From assembly GCF_005377625.1 (NCBI RefSeq), contig NZ_CP040098.1, positions 2,965,279-3,029,278 on the forward strand: a stretch of 64,000 nt of DNA, given 5' to 3'. Positions 6,843 through 58,000 of this stretch are shown here, piece after piece. The translations under genes and the position numbers were made by a program. The DNA is from Desulfoglaeba alkanexedens ALDC. Its GTDB lineage: Bacteria; Desulfobacterota; Syntrophobacteria; Syntrophobacterales; DSM-9756. The notes under the pieces were generated by a model that was given only the letters and a program-made list of their open reading frames with translations, was not told the DNA's origin and ran no database searches. Numbering within the stretch: position 1 is the stretch's first letter; every line of letters begins with the position of its first letter.

Positions 6843-8483
6843 ATGGCAAGGATACCCGAATCTTATCTGCCCCCGAAGGAAATGTGGCCCGAATACATCG
6901 TTCCCGAAGAGTTTTCCGACATTCCCATGAAGCTCAACCTGGCCGATTACTTCGTTGATCGGCACGTGCGCGAAGGCCGGGGGGACAGCGTTGCAGTCAA
7001 ATTCATGGACGAGACCTTCACGTACACCGATCTTCAGCGGATGGTCAACAAGTTCGGCAATGCGCTGAAGGCGGCCGGGGTGGAGTCCCAGGACCGTGTG
7101 GGTATCCGGCTGGTCAATTCCCCTCAGGCCATGGTCAGTATCTTCGCCATTGAAAAGGTGGGAGGGATCCCCGTACCTATGTCCCCCCTGTGGTCCAAGG
7201 AAGAGGTGGCTTTTGTGGCCAACAATGCGGAGATGAAGTTCTTCGTGGTCAACGAGCCGCTTCTGGGACCCGTCGAAGAAGCCAAGGACGATTTTGAGTA
7301 CGGAACCAAGGTCATCGTCATCGGGGGAAAGCCGGATGAGGTGAAGGCGGCAGGCAACTTCAGCTTCGAGGAGATGATGGAACAGGGGGCGCCGGAGCTG
7401 GAAGCGGGGATGCTGGACGCCGACGACATCGGGGTCATCCTGTATACGTCCGGGACCACCGGGATGCTCAAGGGTTGCGTGCACTTCGTCAGGCCGGTGA
7501 TCATCGAGGCCTGCCTGGTGAATAAGTATGTCTATGACCTGAAGCCTGGAGATATCCTAGGAGGATCGGCTCCGGTTTCCTTCGCGGCCGGCTTCGGGAC
7601 GTTCACCCTCATACCTTTCGCGGGAGGCGCCGGTATTTCTCTCCTTCCCAAGTTCGCGCCGGCGGACATGCTGGATCTCATCCAGAGACACAAGATCACG
7701 GTGGTCACCGGTCTGCCCACGGCCTACTGGGTTCTCATGAAGTTCCCGGAGTTCAAGAAGTACGATCTCAGCTCGGTGCGGCTTTACACGACGGCAGGCG
7801 ACGCGCTGGGGGCTGAGACGCTGGAAGGGTGGAAACAGCTGACGGGGCAGCCCATCTGGGAAGGCTTCGGCGGGACCGAAGTGCTTCACCTGGTCACATC
7901 CAACACCATGAACCCCGAGCCGGTTCCCAACTCCATCGGGAAGCCTCTGCCCGGCATCAAGGTGCGGGTCATCGATGCGGGTTGGAACGACGTGAAGCCC
8001 AACGAAGTGGGTAGCATGGTTATTAAGGCGCCTTCCGGCACGCTATATTGGAAACCCTACGTGGACAACGAGCGGCTCTTGAGGTCTCAGCAAGAGAACG
8101 TGACCACAGGGTGGAACAAGATGGGCGACGCGGTCTATATGAGGGAAGACGGGAACATCTTCTTCGTGTCACGTGAAGACGATGTGATTAAGGTTTTAGG
8201 CTATCGCATCGGCCCTGCGGAAGTGGAAGAAGCGATCATGAAGCACCCGGCGGTGGCGGACGCCGGGGTCGTTGGGGTTCCGGATCCGGAGAAGGGTCAG
8301 ATCGTCAAGGCGTACATTGTCATGAAGCCCGGGTATAAGGGTAACGATGCGTTCTTCGAGGAACTGAAGGAATTCTTGAAGCAGCACATCGCTGTGTACA
8401 AGCTGCCGCGCGCAGTGGAGTATGTGGAAGCTCTTCCGCGGACGCCCACCGGGAAGTTGCTGCGCCGGCTGCTCCGGAAATAG
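6843..8483 (+). CDS. Acyl-CoA synthetase, benzoate/aminobenzoate-CoA ligase type
   Basis: A 546-residue ANL-superfamily adenylating enzyme forming an acyl-CoA from a carboxylate, ATP and CoA. Visible motifs: the P-loop-like ILYTSGTTGMLKG near residues 199-211, GFGGTEV (A5; most relatives have Y/G-x-TE), GDAVYMREDGNIFFVSREDD (A7/A8), and the catalytic Lys near 538 in PRTPTGKLLRR. The overall layout, including the N-terminal NLADYFVDRHV, is that of benzoate- and 2-aminobenzoate-CoA ligases, but substrate cannot be read from sequence. The AcuB-like gene upstream and the MBL-fold gene downstream run in the same direction. The start is 281 bp from the AcuB-like gene across a repeat. Confidence 0.9.
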   Translation: MARIPESYLPPKEMWPEYIVPEEFSDIPMKLNLADYFVDRHVREGRGDSVAVKFMDETFTYTDLQRMVNKFGNALKAAGVESQDRVGIRLVNSPQAMVSIFAIEKVGGIPVPMSPLWSKEEVAFVANNAEMKFFVVNEPLLGPVEEAKDDFEYGTKVIVIGGKPDEVKAAGNFSFEEMMEQGAPELEAGMLDADDIGVILYTSGTTGMLKGCVHFVRPVIIEACLVNKYVYDLKPGDILGGSAPVSFAAGFGTFTLIPFAGGAGISLLPKFAPADMLDLIQRHKITVVTGLPTAYWVLMKFPEFKKYDLSSVRLYTTAGDALGAETLEGWKQLTGQPIWEGFGGTEVLHLVTSNTMNPEPVPNSIGKPLPGIKVRVIDAGWNDVKPNEVGSMVIKAPSGTLYWKPYVDNERLLRSQQENVTTGWNKMGDAVYMREDGNIFFVSREDDVIKVLGYRIGPAEVEEAIMKHPAVADAGVVGVPDPEKGQIVKAYIVMKPGYKGNDAFFEELKEFLKQHIAVYKLPRAVEYVEALPRTPTGKLLRRLLRK

Positions 8484-9563: not shown

Positions 9564-9944
<381 letters not shown>

Positions 9945-10091: not shown

Positions 10092-10120
10092 TTGACTTGA
10101 AGAAAGATCTCCGCTAAGTT
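10092..10120 (+). promoter_or_regulatory. Sigma-70-type promoter of the nickel transporter operon
   Basis: TTGACT (10092-10097), 17-bp spacer, TAAGTT (10115-10120). Predicted transcript start is near 10127, giving a leader of about 220 nt before nikK. The -35 matches five of six consensus positions, the -10 four of six. Confidence 0.5.
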
Positions 10121-10126
10121 GCATGA

Positions 10127-10349
10127 GCGTCGGACGCTGCTCGAAGGGAGGAACGCAGAAGCGTTCCGCCGGCCTCCATGGGCCGGGAGCCAGAAGGATT
10201 AGAGGGAATCGGCGGGTGCATGGGCGGGGAGCGGGAGCGTTCCCGGCAGCTCTTTCAATCGGGTCACGAAGGCCGGCACTTGGGTGTCGGCCTTTTTTTG
10301 TGCTGCGGTGGCTTCGGTGTCTCGATGAGGCTATACGAGGAGGTTTGCT
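10127..10349 (+). promoter_or_regulatory. Structured 5' leader with attenuator upstream of nikK
   Basis: Three stable hairpins can be drawn: GGAACGC-AGAA-GCGTTCC (10150-10167), CCGGCC-TCCATG-GGCCGG (10169-10186) and CGGGA-GCGT-TCCCG (10232-10245). An intrinsic terminator at 10271-10299 follows, 51 bp before the nikK ATG. GCCGGCC at 10168-10174 is exactly complementary to GGCCGGC at 10271-10277, the 5' arm of the terminator, so hairpin 2 and an antiterminator would be mutually exclusive. This is what a metal- or cofactor-controlled attenuator would look like. No B12 box or NiCo-riboswitch core could be recognised. Confidence 0.5.
10271..10299 (+). terminator. Intrinsic terminator within the nik leader
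   Basis: GGCCGGCAC-TTGG-GTGTCGGCC followed by seven T. The 9-bp stem has one G-T wobble. Lying between the promoter and the first gene, it should act as an attenuator rather than an end-of-operon terminator. Confidence 0.8.
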
Positions 10350-11156
10350 ATGCGATTCTGGCTTCGATGGGTGGTACCTTCCGCGTTGATCGCGGTGTTG
10401 GCCTTTCCTTGGAATGCCCTCGCACATTTCGGGGTGATCCTGCCTTCCGACGATATCGTCACCCAGGAAGACACGAAGAACCTGATGGTGGAGGTGAAAT
10501 TCGTCCATCCCATGGAAGGAGCTTACATGGCGATGGCGAAGCCCAAAAGGTTCGGCGTGGTTCGTTCGGGGGAGCATAAGGACCTGCTTCCGGTTCTAAA
10601 AGAGGCCGAGGGGAAAGGCCCTCATCAGGAGGGAAGCTTCACTTACTGGAAAGGCGAGGTTGCGATCGGGCGTCCCGGGGATTACGTATTCTACGTGGAA
10701 CCGGCTCCCTACTGGGAACCTGCTGAAGACAAGTATATCGTGCATTACACCAAGGTGTGCGTGAACGCCCTGGGATTGGAGGAAGGCTGGGACGAACCGG
10801 TGGGCCTGGAAACGGAAATCGTTCCCCTGAGCCGGCCTTACGGCCTCTGGACGGGAAACATCTTCACCGGCCGGGTGCTGCTGGAGGGGCGGCCTGTACC
10901 ACACGCGGAGATCGAAGTGGAATACCTGAACGAATCGCCCGGCAATCCGAATTTCGTTCAGCCTCCGTCGGACCCCTTTGTGACCCAGGTGATCCGGGCC
11001 GACGAAGACGGGATCTTCAATTACGCGATGCCGAGGGCCGGCTGGTGGGGTTTCGCGGCCTTGAGCGATGCGTCTTGGAAGCTTGAACGCCAAGGCGTTA
11101 AAAAGGATGTGGAAATCGGTGCCGTCTTCTGGGTGCGCACCACGGACATGCGTTGA
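10350..11156 (+). CDS. nikK: NikK-like periplasmic protein of nickel ECF transporter (DUF4198)
   Basis: A 268-residue exported protein. It has a signal peptide (residues 1-25, [20 protein letters not shown]) and then a DUF4198-type all-beta region: [22 protein letters not shown], a Gly-rich centre, and a C-terminal Ig-like half with [20 protein letters not shown] and [18 protein letters not shown]. In NikKLMQO nickel transporters this extracytoplasmic component precedes the core genes. The His at the mature N-terminus and other exposed His residues could bind metal, but that is inference. The start ATG follows GAGGAGG by 7 bp. First gene of the operon behind the attenuated leader. Confidence 0.8.
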
Positions 11157-11365: not shown

Positions 11366-11698
11366 ATGGACCTGAAGCGAATGGGGATCATCCTGGCGGT
11401 CATGGCTGCCGTGACGGGGTTTTCGGTTCCCGCCTGGAGTCACAAGGTGAACGTTTTCGCCTATGTGGAACGCGGCACGGTACACGTGGAAGGCTATTTC
11501 CCTGACGGCAAGCCCGCGGGAAACGCCGCGATCCAGGTCCTCGATAGCGGAGGGCGCAGACTGCTGGAAGGCAGAACGGACGCGGAAGGGCTCTTTTCCT
11601 TCCCCCTTCCGAAAAAGGACGACCTGACCATCGTGATCGACGCATCTATGGGCCACAGGAACCAGTTTCTGCTGAAGAAGCAAGACTTGGGGGACTAG
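11366..11698 (+). CDS. NikL-like protein, N-terminal (Ig-like) part of nickel ECF transporter
   Basis: A 110-residue exported protein with a signal peptide (residues 1-24, ending VPAWSHKVN) and a carboxypeptidase-regulatory/Ig-like fold: VFAYVERGTVHVEGYFPDG, NAAIQVLDSGGRRLLEGRTD, AEGLFSFPLP, VIDASMGHRNQFLL. The HKVNVFAYVE start and the conserved M-G-H match the N-terminal half of NikL as I know it. Typical NikL proteins continue into a coiled coil and one C-terminal membrane helix; here the frame stops after residue 110, and those parts lie in the next ORF, whose TTG start directly follows this stop. The ribosome binding site GGAGGAGGAG is strong. Confidence 0.7.
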   Translation: MDLKRMGIILAVMAAVTGFSVPAWSHKVNVFAYVERGTVHVEGYFPDGKPAGNAAIQVLDSGGRRLLEGRTDAEGLFSFPLPKKDDLTIVIDASMGHRNQFLLKKQDLGD

Positions 11699-12079
11699 TT
11701 GAAGTCGGTGCCGGTGTTTGGGAAGGCGGTCCTGGCTGCCGCGTGCCTTGCGGCGATAGGGATCTTTTCACCGTCCGGTTTTTCTGAAGCGGGCTCGGTG
11801 GTTCGGGCGGCGGAAGCGTCGTCTGAGGCCGAACGAGCGGGGTTACGGCCGGAGCGTCGTTCGGGATGCGAAGAAGATCTGGCTCTGATCAAGGAAGAAC
11901 TGGATCGGCTGTCCCAGGAGATGCACCACTTGCGACGCGATGTGGCACGCCTTCGTGAGGAAGTTTCTCAGCCCGGGTTGGAGGAAGCGATGGCCGGCGT
12001 CGGCTTCATTTTCGGACTCTTCGGAGTGGCCTTTTTCCTCCGCGCAAGGGGCTCGGGCCGAACCGGGCCGGGGACATGA
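11699..12079 (+). CDS. NikL-like C-terminal part: signal helix, coiled coil, membrane helix
   Basis: A 126-residue protein beginning at a TTG that abuts the previous stop. Residues 1-30 form a hydrophobic signal or anchor (KAVLAAACLAAIGIFS), 58-90 a charged coiled coil (LALIKEELDRLSQEMHHLRR), and about 98-118 a membrane helix (AMAGVGFIFGLFGVAFFLRA). The last two elements resemble the C-terminal part of intact NikL, and the two-helix topology resembles CbiN/NikN. So the usual single NikL gene appears to be two genes here, each with its own export signal. The alternative is an old frameshift. The start codon is inferred. Confidence 0.65.
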   Translation: MKSVPVFGKAVLAAACLAAIGIFSPSGFSEAGSVVRAAEASSEAERAGLRPERRSGCEEDLALIKEELDRLSQEMHHLRRDVARLREEVSQPGLEEAMAGVGFIFGLFGVAFFLRARGSGRTGPGT

Positions 12080-12088
12080 GGAAGTGAC

Positions 12089-12706
12089 ATGCACCTTTCG
12101 GACGGAGTGCTGCCGACGGCGGTGACGCTCGGCGGCTTTGCGGCGGCGGCAGCTGCAGCGGCCTGGAGTCTTCGAAGAACACGGGCGGAGGATCTCCCCA
12201 AGGTGGCGGTGGTGACCTCGTCGTTCTTTGTGGCCTCGCTGATCCATGTTCCTCTGGGCCCCACCAGCGTCCACTTGCTTCTTCCCGGCGTGGTGGGGAT
12301 CCTGCTCGGGCCCGCAGCCTTTCTCGCCATCTTTCTCGGCCTGATTCTCCAGAGCTTTCTTTTCGGGTTCGGTGGAATCACGGCGCTGGGAGCCAATGCT
12401 GTCATAATGGGGGTCCCGGCATGGGTTGCGGGGGCCCTGTTTCGGACCTTCCGGGGGGAAGGGGCGGCCCGACAAGCGGTCCTCGGGGCCGTCGCCGGTG
12501 CCCTGGCGGTGGCACTGGCCGCGTTGATCCTCGCCCTTTTCCTGTTCACTGGGGGTGAAGATTTCCTGGGGATCGCCAAGATCGCTTTGGCAGCCCATAT
12601 TCCAGTCATGGCGGTGGAGGCTCTGATCACCGGGGTTTCGATTTCCTTTCTGGCCAAGGTCAAACCGGAACTGCTGGACAGGCCGTTCACTTCCGGTTCC
12701 CGTTGA
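12089..12706 (+). CDS. nikM: Nickel/cobalt ECF transporter substrate-binding membrane subunit (NikM/CbiM)
   Basis: A 205-residue polytopic membrane protein beginning MHLSDGVLP. In CbiM/NikM the free N-terminus and His2 enter the membrane and coordinate Ni2+ or Co2+, and the Met-His start fits that. Further features are HVPLGPTSVHLLLPGVVG (conserved His), the GPAAFLAIFLGLILQSFLFG segment, GGITALGANAVIMGVPA and several Ala/Leu-rich helices. Metal preference cannot be read reliably, but the NikK/NikL-like companions and lack of cobalamin genes favour nickel. The ATG is preceded by AGGAAG. It is 9 bp after the NikL-like C-terminal gene. Confidence 0.92.
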   Translation: MHLSDGVLPTAVTLGGFAAAAAAAAWSLRRTRAEDLPKVAVVTSSFFVASLIHVPLGPTSVHLLLPGVVGILLGPAAFLAIFLGLILQSFLFGFGGITALGANAVIMGVPAWVAGALFRTFRGEGAARQAVLGAVAGALAVALAALILALFLFTGGEDFLGIAKIALAAHIPVMAVEALITGVSISFLAKVKPELLDRPFTSGSR

Positions 12707-12752: not shown

Positions 12753-13736
12753 ATGACAGACGTTTCCGAGGTCTTGAGGATCCCTTGGCCCGCCTTTCTT
12801 TCCGGAACCGTCGTGGCGGCGGGAGCGGCCCTCTGGGGCTGTCGCCGGGTTTTTCAGGGCGAAGCTTCGAAGGTGAAAGGAGACGATGAGTCGGAAAGGG
12901 ACTGGTCCCTTCCCGCGGTGGATGCGTTCCATGACCGCCGTTCGCCCTTTCACGAGTGGGACCCCCGTTTCAAGATCGCGTCGATCCTGACGTACTGCTT
13001 CCTGGTGGTTTCGCTCAGAACCGTCCTCATGGCCCTGGCGGCCGCGGCCGTCTCTGTGGCCTGCGTGGCGGCGGCCCGCGTTCCGTTGGGGAGAGCGTTC
13101 AGGCGGGTGGCCGCGATGGGCGGTTTTCTGGTCATGCTCGTTCTCGTGATGCCCTTGACCGTACCGGTGAAGGACGGGGACATGGTAGCGGTGGTCATGC
13201 CGTTGGATTGGCTGAGCTTCAACGTCCGGGGTTTCGAGATCGCCCTGCTGATCGGGCTCAAGGCGACGGCGGTTACGCTTCTTATGGAACCCCTCCTGGG
13301 GACGGCTCCTTTTTCGGTCACCGTTTCGGCTCTCGCTCGTATCGGGTTGCCCAAGAACCTTTGCCAGATGCTGCTGCTGGCGCACCCCTACCTTTACGTT
13401 TTTCAGCATGAAGCTCGGCGGATGAGTGTGGGAATGGCCGTTCGGGGTTTTCGAAAGCGAACCAATTGGGCGACGCTTCAAGCGACCGGGAATTTCCTTG
13501 GGATGCTCTTTGTGAGAAGCTTCGAACGGACGGAGCGGGTCTACGAAGCCATGCTCTGCCGTGGTTACCGCGGGGAATTTCCAGCGACGGTTTCTTTCAC
13601 GGCTCGCGGAAGTGACTGGGCCAAGGGGGCGGTGTTCGCCGCCCTGGGAGCCGGCCTCCTACTGCTGGATCGGATGGTGCCGGTCCAGTCGATGACGGCC
13701 TGGCTCCATTTCCTTTTTCCTTTCCAGGGCGGTTAG
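12753..13736 (+). CDS. nikQ: Nickel/cobalt ECF transporter T-component (NikQ/CbiQ)
   Basis: A 327-residue CbiQ-family energy-coupling membrane protein. The first 45 residues contain a hydrophobic stretch (FLSGTVVAAGAALWG), then AVDAFHDRRSPFHEWDPRFKI, which is the CbiQ start signature (normal relatives begin near this point). Several membrane helices follow. The cytoplasmic coupling motif occurs in the ARRMSVGMAVRGFRKRTN region and again in MLCRGYRGEF. The T-component transmits ATPase motions to NikM. It is normally followed at once by its ATPase, but here the next gene is 1.2 kb away across repeat DNA. Confidence 0.9.
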   Translation: MTDVSEVLRIPWPAFLSGTVVAAGAALWGCRRVFQGEASKVKGDDESERDWSLPAVDAFHDRRSPFHEWDPRFKIASILTYCFLVVSLRTVLMALAAAAVSVACVAAARVPLGRAFRRVAAMGGFLVMLVLVMPLTVPVKDGDMVAVVMPLDWLSFNVRGFEIALLIGLKATAVTLLMEPLLGTAPFSVTVSALARIGLPKNLCQMLLLAHPYLYVFQHEARRMSVGMAVRGFRKRTNWATLQATGNFLGMLFVRSFERTERVYEAMLCRGYRGEFPATVSFTARGSDWAKGAVFAALGAGLLLLDRMVPVQSMTAWLHFLFPFQGG

Positions 13737-14965: not shown

Positions 14966-16666
14966 GTGCCGAAGCGGCGGCGCGACGGCGAAGTCATTTC
15001 CACGAAAGAGACGACGAGGTGCCTTTTGCACCAGCAGATCGCTTCCCTTCCCTTGTCTCTGGAACCGGGCCGCCCCCTGATCGCGGTCGAAAAGGTGTCT
15101 TATGTCTACCCGGACGGCCGCCGGGCCCTTGAGGACATCGACCTCACCGTCCAGGAAGGCGATCGAATCGCCCTGGTGGGGCAGAACGGTTCGGGAAAAA
15201 CCACACTGGCCAAGGTGCTCAACGGGCTCTACACGCCCCGTCGGGGGCGTGTATGTTACGCGGGGGGTTTGCTTGAAGGCGATCACCTTCTGCGGGCCCG
15301 TACCGAAATCGGGCTTTTCTTTCAAGATCCCGACGACCACCTGTTCTGCAACACAGTCTACGAAGACGTCGCCTTTGGTCCGTTGAACCAGGGATGGGAC
15401 CCGCAGGAAGTGGACCGCCGGGTGAGGGAAGCGGTGGAGCACGTGGGGCTGGAAGCCTTCCTCTACAAACCGGCCCACCATCTGAGCTACGGTCAGCGAA
15501 AGCGCGCCGCCTTCGCCGCGGTGCTCGCCATGAAGCCGCGGGTGCTGATTCTCGATGAGCCCACGGCGAACCTTGATCCGCGACAGGAAGCCGTCTTCGT
15601 TGAGCTGCTGAAAAAGTTTCATGGGACGCTGATCGTCATCAGCCACGACCTCCTCTTTCTCTACGGCCTGTGCTCGAGAGCCGTGGTCCTGGAGCACGGA
15701 AGGATTCACCACGACTACACGCTGGAGGCCCTGGTGGCCCACCCGCCCTCGCTTCGTGAACACGGGCTGGATTTTTCGTTTCGATTCAGCTGCTGCGGCA
15801 TCCATGAACCCGGGAGGATCGAGCCTTCGGCGGATTCGGGGAATGCGCAGGAAAGCGGCAGCCCCGAGGGGCGGTCTTCGAGGGGTGCCGAGGTTTCTCC
15901 GCTGATCCAGCTGAAGGATTTCGCTTATCGCTACCCCGATGGGACCTGGGGCGTTCGGGGCATCGACCTTTCGGTTCACGCCGGTGAAAAGTTGGCTCTG
16001 GTGGGGGAAAACGGCGCCGGAAAGTCGACGCTCGCCGCATGCCTGCTGGGTCTGCGCCTCGGGCGTGGTACTTACCGTTTCGACGGCAAGCCGGTCGACG
16101 AAAAGCGGCGAAAGCGGCTTTGGCGGCATATCGGCATGGTGTTCCAGGATTCGTCGGATCAGCTCTTCTGTCCTTCCTGTCGGGAAGAGGTGGCCTTCGG
16201 CCCCAGGCAGATGGGGCTTGCAGCCGCCGAAGTGGACCGGCGTACCCGGGAGGCTCTGGCGCGCGTGGGACTGGAGGGGTTCGAAGATCGCGCGCCCCAT
16301 CGGTTGAGCGGCGGGGAGCGGAAGCGCCTCGCTATCGCGGCGGTCCTCGGCATGCATCCGCGTGTGCTCATCCTGGATGAGCCGACCTCCGGCCTGGATC
16401 CTCGAAGTGAGGAACGTCTCCTGGAAATTCTCCGGGAGCTTCGGGTGACCCTTGTGGTCATCAGCCACGACGTGCACTTCCTGTCCCTTCTTTGCGAACG
16501 GACGGTGGTCATGCACGGGGGCCGCATCATTCGAGACGGCCCCATGGACGCCTTCCTGAACGATGAGCACCTGGATAGTCTGAATGGCCTGGCGTACACG
16601 TACAAGAGCGAATGCCGCCGCCGGATCTTGAGGCTTCAGGAATCGGCGTTTCCGGCCGCCGGCTGA
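14966..16666 (+). CDS. nikO: Nickel/cobalt ECF transporter ATPase, tandem two-domain fusion (NikO/CbiO)
   Basis: A 566-residue protein with two complete ABC ATPase domains joined by a Ser/Gly/Glu-rich linker (about 270-310). Domain 1 has Walker A GQNGSGKTT, signature LSYGQRKR and Walker B LILDEPTANLDP. Domain 2 has Walker A GENGAGKST, signature LSGGERKR and LILDEPTSGLDP. Both carry the ECF-type Q-loop context FQDPDDHLF / FQDSSDQLF. Most CbiO/NikO proteins are single-domain homodimers; here one chain supplies both halves. The GTG start has GAAGGGG 8 bp upstream. Separated from nikQ by repeat DNA, so its own transcription start is possible. Its last 31 bp overlap the convergent glycosyltransferase. 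Confidence 0.92.
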   Translation: MPKRRRDGEVISTKETTRCLLHQQIASLPLSLEPGRPLIAVEKVSYVYPDGRRALEDIDLTVQEGDRIALVGQNGSGKTTLAKVLNGLYTPRRGRVCYAGGLLEGDHLLRARTEIGLFFQDPDDHLFCNTVYEDVAFGPLNQGWDPQEVDRRVREAVEHVGLEAFLYKPAHHLSYGQRKRAAFAAVLAMKPRVLILDEPTANLDPRQEAVFVELLKKFHGTLIVISHDLLFLYGLCSRAVVLEHGRIHHDYTLEALVAHPPSLREHGLDFSFRFSCCGIHEPGRIEPSADSGNAQESGSPEGRSSRGAEVSPLIQLKDFAYRYPDGTWGVRGIDLSVHAGEKLALVGENGAGKSTLAACLLGLRLGRGTYRFDGKPVDEKRRKRLWRHIGMVFQDSSDQLFCPSCREEVAFGPRQMGLAAAEVDRRTREALARVGLEGFEDRAPHRLSGGERKRLAIAAVLGMHPRVLILDEPTSGLDPRSEERLLEILRELRVTLVVISHDVHFLSLLCERTVVMHGGRIIRDGPMDAFLNDEHLDSLNGLAYTYKSECRRRILRLQESAFPAAG

Positions 16667-43877: not shown

Positions 43878-44202
43878 CGGTCGGTTTCCCCTTCCCCTTG
43901 TTTCCAAGCTCCAGCTTGGAAACAAGGGGAAGGGGATGTTGGAGCTTGGGAACAAGGGGAAACGCCAACTGGAGAGCCGTGTGCGGGAGAACCGCAGGCA
44001 CGGTTCGGGGGGCGGGGAGAGCTTCGGCTCTTCCCGACCCCTATCTGATAACGGAAAATCGGGCCGGCCTCCGTAGAAGCCGGCTTGCCTGCCTGCCGGT
44101 AGGCAGGCACGTCAGGGTCCCACTTTCATCAGCTCTCTTGTGCTTCAAGCCTGTCCCCGAAACGACGAAGGGGGGCGGTTTTCGGGGATCTTTGAAGGGC
44201 CC
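43878..44202. repeat. Repeat-bearing gap after nth
   Basis: Positions 43900-43955 carry palindromic TTTCCAAGCTCCAGCTTGGA repeats (a decayed copy of the GTTCCCAAGC family). Positions 44037-44112 carry the GCCGGC family (CCTATCTGATAACGGAAAAT ... GCCGGCTTGCCTGCCTGCCG). No gene supported. Confidence 0.7.
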
Positions 44203-56730: not shown

Positions 56731-57184
56731 CTCGAACCTCCTCGTGCTGTCCCGACAACGCGCCCAAGCCGTGACGTTTCCACACCATTTCAGGACCCGG
56801 ATCTGCAAGTGACCAGGGAAAAGAGCCCGAAAGCATCGACCGGATGGTTAAGTCCTTTACTCAAAACCCGCGCGCCATTCCGGGGTTGATCCCGTTCCGG
56901 AAAAACCGGCGGGTCATGCCGCCTTTCGCCGGAAGGACGAAGGGGTGGTCTCTCGAAAGCCTCATGGTTGTGTCGGCGCGTCCGCCCGTCACCGTGTGAA
57001 AAATCGACGTCACTCTACTGAAGACACCCCTTCAAGTCAAACATTATCACGGGCTTCGAGATACGCCGAAGCCATACCTTCCCTGGAAGCCACGCGGCCC
57101 CGGGCTTCAATGCCCCCATCTGACCAATATCTTCGGCGAGCGGAAAGTGGTCCAAGGGACCATTCACAGCATGTCCCTGGTGAA
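56731..57184. other. Gene-free stretch upstream of the membrane-anchored protein
   Basis: 454 bp with one promoter-like site (57012-57040) pointing at the 56730 start. The long putative 5' untranslated region (about 275 nt) shows no recognisable RNA family and no repeat of the dispersed families. The trmJ 3' end lies at 57185. Confidence 0.55.
57012..57040 (-). promoter_or_regulatory. Possible promoter for the membrane-anchored protein
   Basis: Minus strand TTGACT (57035-57040), 17-bp spacer, TAGAGT (57012-57017). Good -35, moderate -10; would leave a 275-nt leader. Confidence 0.4.
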
Positions 57185-58000
57185 TCACAAGATCCCTCTG
57201 GAGTCCCGGGAGTCTTGATTTTCGTGAGAAGCCGGGGGGGCTTTCGGGCTTTGCTCTGCCTCGGCTTCCGCAGATTCCAGGCGTTTTCCGCAGTACCAGT
57301 TGATTTGCCGGCATATACCACGGATGATCTTCACGTCTCGAGCTCTCAGGCCGAGCCGGCCCACGGCGCGCCGGATGTTTTCCATCCAGTGGTCTGGGTT
57401 TTCCGGGTTGATGAAATGAATCCTCGCCAGGGTTTCGCCCAGCTGCTCGTACATGGCCTCCAGTTCAAAGGACGTGGCGAGCCGTGGAACGAAAACCGGA
57501 GGCGTTTCGACGCCGGCTCGAAAGATCTCGTAACAGATCAGCATGACCGCCTGAGCCAGATTCAGGGACGAGAAGTCATGGGTGGGGATGGTGACCAAGC
57601 TGTGGCAGAAGCGAAGTTCGCGGTTGGAAAGACCTCGGTTTTCCGGCCCGAACAGAAGGGCGACTCGGTTTTCGCGGCTGAGGGCGATGAGCTGTTCCGC
57701 CATGCGCCTGGGATCGGCTACGGTCGGCCGGTGGGAGCCGGTGCGGGCGGTGGTGCCCACCACGTATTGGTATGGGCCCACGGCGTCGGCCAGGTATTCG
57801 TAAATTTCCATGTCGGCCACCAGGTCCTCGGCGGCCTGGGTCGCCATTTTGAGGATGCGGGTGAGGTCGCAGTCCAGTGGATCCACCACCGCCAGCCGGC
57901 TGATCCCCATGTTCTTCGCCGCTCGGGCGGCCGCTCCGATGTTTTCGGGAAAGTGCGGCCGGTGAAGAATGATGCCGATGTTTTCAAGCTTGACTCGCAT
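57185..58000 (-). CDS. trmJ: TrmJ-like RNA 2'-O-methyltransferase (SPOUT)
   Basis: A 271-residue SPOUT enzyme: ILHRPHFPENIGAAARAAKN, LAVVDPLDCD, the AARTGS-type loop VGTTARTGSHRPTV, and the knot VALLFGPENRGLSNRELRFC with IPTHDFSSLNLAQAVML. This fits TrmJ, which methylates position 32 of some tRNAs; related TrmH-family targets cannot be excluded. C-terminal 60 residues form an extension ending in an acidic/Pro-rich tail. Own promoter upstream. Confidence 0.88.
   Translation of the reverse strand: MRVKLENIGIILHRPHFPENIGAAARAAKNMGISRLAVVDPLDCDLTRILKMATQAAEDLVADMEIYEYLADAVGPYQYVVGTTARTGSHRPTVADPRRMAEQLIALSRENRVALLFGPENRGLSNRELRFCHSLVTIPTHDFSSLNLAQAVMLICYEIFRAGVETPPVFVPRLATSFELEAMYEQLGETLARIHFINPENPDHWMENIRRAVGRLGLRARDVKIIRGICRQINWYCGKRLESAEAEAEQSPKAPPASHENQDSRDSRGIL

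Follow-up and report, generated by a model that had tools for sequence, protein, structure and literature searches.

The NikR repressor, a DNA-binding protein, would control the same genes as the RNA element that is the subject here, and would do so in response to nickel. The NiCo (czcD) riboswitch also ties RNA control to nickel and cobalt: it governs efflux and binds the metal directly, in a four-way junction. CsrA/RsmA is a small β-rich homodimer that bridges target hairpins standing at variable distances from each other. The RNA targets of the ANTAR proteins NasR, EutV and AmiR are pairs of small hairpins that are read through their loops and are separated by a variable linker, with one of the two overlapping an intrinsic terminator; by definition, both hairpins of an ANTAR-target RNA carry a hexaloop whose first base is A and whose fourth is G (PMC3369931).

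The leader of the nickel-transporter operon of Desulfoglaeba alkanexedens ALDC probably belongs to a new RNA family that attenuates transcription in response to nickel and is bound by a protein. It differs from each of its described counterparts: from NikR, which is almost never found in genomes that carry the RNA element; from the NiCo riboswitch in lacking both the four-way-junction core and an Rfam match; from the CsrA/RsmA targets in that most of its loops have no GGA core (and CsrA/RsmA has no nickel connection); and from the ANTAR RNAs in its NGAA or ANGAA loops, its nickel targets, its much more variable linker and its presence in genomes without ANTAR proteins.

The leader and operon of D. 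alkanexedens

Positions are those of the window (the whole stretch of 64,000 nucleotides that was analyzed):

10092..10120, + strand: σ70-type promoter, TTGACT (10092-10097), 17 bp, TAAGTT (10115-10120); read from the sequence
10150..10167, + strand: hairpin H1, GGAACGC-AGAA-GCGTTCC; in the MFE fold, and a covarying NGAA-loop hairpin in orthologues
10169..10186, + strand: accessory middle hairpin; in the MFE fold, and by comparison with leaders L022 and L026
10262..10274, + strand: hairpin H3, GGTC-ACGAA-GGCC (RNA GGUC-ACGAA-GGCC), conserved antiterminator; from leader comparison and folding
10268..10299, + strand: intrinsic terminator with T tract, exclusive with H3; from terminator search and folding
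10350..11156, + strand: nikK (DUF4198; Pfam PF10670), first gene of the operon
11366..11698, + strand: nikL (NCBIfam NF058648, NikL family nickel/cobalt ECF subunit)
11699..12079, + strand: small predicted coiled-coil membrane protein of no Pfam family, whose homologues recur in the same operons
12089..12706, + strand: nikM (CbiM family; Pfam PF01891)
12753..13736, + strand: nikQ (CbiQ family; Pfam PF02361)
14966..16666, + strand: nikO-like double ABC ATPase (Pfam PF00005, two stretches)

An earlier note on this DNA had read a promoter, three hairpins and a strong intrinsic terminator ahead of nikK, and all of these stand. The promoter matches its consensus at 8 of 12 positions, and is therefore not listed by the promoter tool, whose cut-off is 9/12; the same TTGAC box recurs in orthologous leaders, and transcription would start at about 10127. 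The hairpins at 10150-10167, 10169-10186 and approximately 10224-10247 are all present in the MFE fold, the second of them placed as are the NGAA hairpins of L022 and L026 (the closest leaders of the same layout) with a different loop in the window. The terminator, a 12-pair stem (10268-10295) followed by a run of seven T, lies before the first gene and has a mutually exclusive alternative fold, a combination expected of an intrinsic-terminator attenuator, in which read-through would also change with a signal.

What is that alternative fold? The earlier note had paired the 5' arm of the terminator (10271-10277, GGCCGGC) with part of the middle hairpin (10168-10174, GCCGGCC). The complementarity is indeed exact; the exclusive pairing is not conserved. 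It is missing from L022 and L026, which makes it look like a coincidence or a peculiarity of this genome, and it has been rejected as a conserved switch. The conserved competitor of the terminator is instead a small local hairpin that the earlier note did not have: H3, the 3' arm of which is, in the window, the base of the terminator's 5' arm. H3 is much the weaker of the two (about -3 kcal/mol, versus -20 for the terminator), so the antiterminated state needs something that stabilizes H3 during RNA synthesis.

An Rfam scan of the window leader finds no family at gathering score (sub-threshold matches to SorY, Esr41 and others are due to the terminator only), in agreement with the earlier note's reading that neither a NiCo nor a cobalamin riboswitch is present. 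In the nikK leaders of relatives RF00174 has no match; it matches only away from the leaders and on the opposite strand. (A side observation: in the same-family relatives' loci L023, L024, L028 and L030-L032 a cobalamin riboswitch stands ~600-1100 nt before nikK on the other strand, placing cobalt/B12 control and nickel control back to back. Elsewhere in the window, tandem GAACATCGAACATT repeats followed by GTTCCCAAGCTGGAGCTTGGGAAC-type palindromes at 9606-9840 recur at several places, and a group II intron domain match, RF00029 with 54.5 bits, lies at 43972-44044 on the + strand.)

A conserved element before nickel-uptake genes

A DNA similarity search with the leader returns only chance matches of ~20 nt, because the element is conserved in structure and not in sequence. 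The earlier note had proposed a search for covariation upstream of nikK homologues, and comparison of the leaders of nikK orthologues, taken from relatives that span six families, does bring out two covarying hairpins with NGAA loops, in a constant order: TTGAC box, H1, variable linker, H3, T run. The distance from the TTGAC box to H1 is 37-42 nt in nearly all of these leaders and 58 nt in the window; the H3 loop is ANGAA, mostly closed by GGYC/GGCC; the linker between H1 and H3 ranges from a few to ~94 nt. The leaders of some relatives in families f1 and f3 have a middle hairpin, GCACC-UGAA-GGUGC or CACC-UGAA-GGUG.

H3 and the terminator exclude each other in two ways. In type A, to which the window and families f1-f3 belong, the two structures share a strand: the terminator's 5' arm has the 3' arm of H3 as its base. 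In type B, which covers families f5 and f6 as well as most sites of other phyla, it is the terminator's 3' arm that pairs with H3, taking up its 5' arm and loop; at many type B sites the terminator contains an extra NGAA hairpin. Nearly all of the segments with a T run that were tested fold as terminators. Two Nitrospirae leaders (L247, 3282-3530; L251, 1693-1940) have two successive element-type terminators in tandem before the same operon.

Is there a switch at all? The window leader as a whole folds only moderately better than its shuffles (z = -1.8; 10 of 200 shuffles are equally good), so energy by itself is not convincing, and one might see here nothing but a terminator of the usual sort, ending an upstream transcript or a small RNA, with hairpins that precede it by chance. 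That reading is very improbable in view of the covariation, the conservation across phyla, the fixed place after a promoter and the restriction to nickel genes. Two hand-registered alignments, of 24 and 43 sites, have 86-87% of their cells paired (65-66% in shuffles) and score 0.69 for covariation (0.27 in shuffles), a signal that is destroyed by sliding the partners (the measure does lean toward structure, since the hairpins were located by stem and loop). A covariance model, R1, was built without promoter and without terminator; most of its non-coding matches nonetheless have a correctly placed TTGAC upstream and a T run downstream, and the genes that follow, which the model does not see, are nickel genes. 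A separate collection of 80 NikK loci gives 19 promoter-linked descriptor sites in the sense and 1 in the antisense orientation, and ten complete shuffles together yield 2 (~0.2 per set). Across the genome, a 13-base pattern for H3 by itself occurs no more often than chance would have it, and it takes the complete layout to be informative. (R1 and R2 matches in coding sequence without promoter or terminator, L121, L124, L125, L129, L130 and L311-L315 among others, were set aside.)

The layout of two small hairpins, the second overlapping the terminator, is that of the two-hairpin antiterminators of the nasF and eut leaders (PMC3369931), and an ANTAR protein might be thought to read the element. 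The tandem hairpins and the terminator overlap are there; the A1/G4 hexaloop signature is missing (the loops are NGAA, ANGAA or NNGAAN) and so is the protein: many genomes with the element, at 95-99% completeness, have no ANTAR domain, which refutes this as a general explanation, and in this genome the only ANTAR protein is a NadE-GAF-ANTAR fusion encoded far from the leader. ANTAR control is the least credible of the alternatives. (The fusion, of an NAD synthetase to GAF and ANTAR, is at 5976-7421 of L062, G000:C1:455975-457420; ANTAR matches in long open frames of several same-family genomes suggest the same NAD synthetase fusion.)

Sites are found in Desulfobacterota, Nitrospirota and one Schekmanbacteria genome, and no Rfam overlap was found at the element sites that were checked. 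The isolates with the element include Desulfosarcina widdelii PP31 (L255) and Thermodesulfovibrio sp. N1 (L254, L341). This genome has two further copies: one (L098) precedes exbB-exbD-tonB-TonB receptor, and the other (L099) precedes DUF3842-cooT-FecCD permease-ATPase-binding protein-FmdE. Elsewhere, in relatives and other phyla, the first genes encode NikMN/CbiM, NikK, NikL, FecCD permeases (of ABC transporters), a FecB-type binding protein, TonB/ExbBD or DUF3450-type energizers, TonB receptors, porins and CooT. Judged by their sequences, the target genes are throughout those of nickel uptake (outside the window, L098 and L099 the gene names come mostly from reading translations by eye).

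Two kinds of less transparent neighborhood may be noted. At two Nitrospirota loci (L331, L341) the element stands before a methyltransferase gene, and at one of them the next frame resembles, by eye, a portion of a nickel/peptide ABC binding protein. Such loci may be concerned with a nickel metallophore or represent a new uptake cluster. A full copy near 7392 (-) of L145 (G036:C141), a clear site with no obvious nickel gene adjoining, precedes an apparent response regulator and membrane protein pair.

Replacement of NikR and the candidate binder

NikR_C has no match in this genome or in 54 relatives of its class. A comparison sample of 50 genomes with NikK, which come from several phyla and were all scored by a uniform rule, has NikR in 1/28 element-bearing and 18/22 element-free genomes (Fisher p = 7e-9); genome counts of this kind are confounded by phylogeny to some degree, but the pattern spans phyla. 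The sole overlap, G095, has a site without a promoter that may be there by chance. Two genomes that lack NikR and have an element-like site by eye, G082 (L209) and G108 (L274), are missed by the uniform rule and were left out of the 28-versus-22 count. By these distributions the element stands in for NikR. The earlier note had suggested that there may be an undescribed sensor here, and its reading is partly borne out: it is well supported that the nickel operon is attenuated by an element other than a NiCo or cobalamin riboswitch, and without NikR. The conserved design, with almost the same NGAA loop on two small hairpins whose spacing varies widely, points to a protein binder and not to a metal-sensing aptamer.

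The loops are fixed, the stems change freely and the linker is very variable, which suggests a protein, probably a dimer. (A counterpoint: a linker that extends to such lengths is wide for a single dimer.) The proposed sequence of events is as follows. Polymerase would start at about 10127 and make H1 first, then H3. With no binder, the 3' arm of H3 would be drawn into the far more stable terminator and transcription would stop near 10299. When nickel is scarce (the signal may also be cobalt, or both metals), a trans-acting RNA-binding protein would keep H3 folded, probably by binding, as a dimer, the NGAA loops of both H1 and H3 at once; the terminator would thereby be blocked and nikKLMQO expressed. 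The same protein acting on the exbBD-tonB-receptor and DUF3842-cooT-FecCD-FmdE copies would make of these operons one regulon, the role that NikR has elsewhere.

Might the RNA itself bind Ni2+ or Co2+, with H1 and H3 packed together as the aptamer? The regulon is one of nickel uptake, the protein binder is only a candidate, and NiCo sets a precedent for a riboswitch that binds these two metals. Yet conservation is limited to short loops, the linker varies as described, no junction or other conserved core is seen, and there is no Rfam riboswitch match; a riboswitch is on balance unlikely.

For the favored reading, that a protein binds the two loops, the leading candidate is CooT, a nickel-binding homodimer. 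The identification is tentative, and less likely right than wrong. The nickel-free homodimer would bridge the NGAA hairpins, and nickel at Cys2 would release them. On this speculative view CooT would sense nickel and act on RNA as an antiterminator, either in place of its role as a chaperone of carbon monoxide dehydrogenase or in addition to it. In more than 10 genomes cooT follows an element-led operon or forms part of one, in several coming immediately after the terminator. Strong CooT matches occur in 24/28 element-bearing versus 7/22 other genomes of the comparison sample (p = 1e-4), and in 50/58 class relatives. Reasonably complete genomes of the class without CooT have no full site. Against CooT, Desulfacinum hydrothermale (G005) is without the protein and yet keeps a leader with the hairpins, though with no terminator; three element-bearing draft genomes (G061, G064, G065) show no CooT, and CooT is also present in some genomes with NikR. 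The CooT fold is a small β barrel; structure comparison finds other CooT structures first, then Hfq and other small barrels weakly (Z ~3), a likeness too weak to be evidence for RNA binding. (The window also has a 5'-truncated cooT remnant without a start, LTNIFGERKVVQGTIHSMSLVNHKIPLES, at 57123-57220 (+); intact copies are elsewhere in the genome.)

Another protein of the regulon might be the binder in place of CooT, for example an FmdE-family protein with a DksA/TraR zinc finger, or DUF3842. Genes of both are in the cooT operon of this genome (L099), and FmdE proteins are metal-binding dimers, of which those with the zinc finger have been proposed to bind RNA or to sense metal (PMC2954224). 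In the neighborhoods examined, both are rarer near the element than CooT is, and either would be an improbable choice.

Novelty and meaning

Attenuation through alternative paired hairpins is an already known kind of mechanism. The element itself is apparently new: neither the family, nor its loop signature, nor its nickel regulon, nor its replacement of NikR was found in Rfam 15 or the open literature, and a prior description is possible in the subscription papers and preprints beyond the literature searched. Genome comparison thus presents an apparently undescribed, widespread family of putative RNA switches governing nickel-uptake genes in Desulfobacterota, Nitrospirota and other bacteria.

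Many nickel-dependent anaerobes are without NikR, and no account of how they control nickel uptake was found. The element offers a testable answer across several phyla, and names both a regulon and a candidate sensor, CooT, the function of which is debated. It would add a metal-responsive case to antitermination at the RNA level. If CooT should prove to be the binder, it would represent a metalloregulator class that works on the RNA as it is being made and takes the place of NikR in several phyla.
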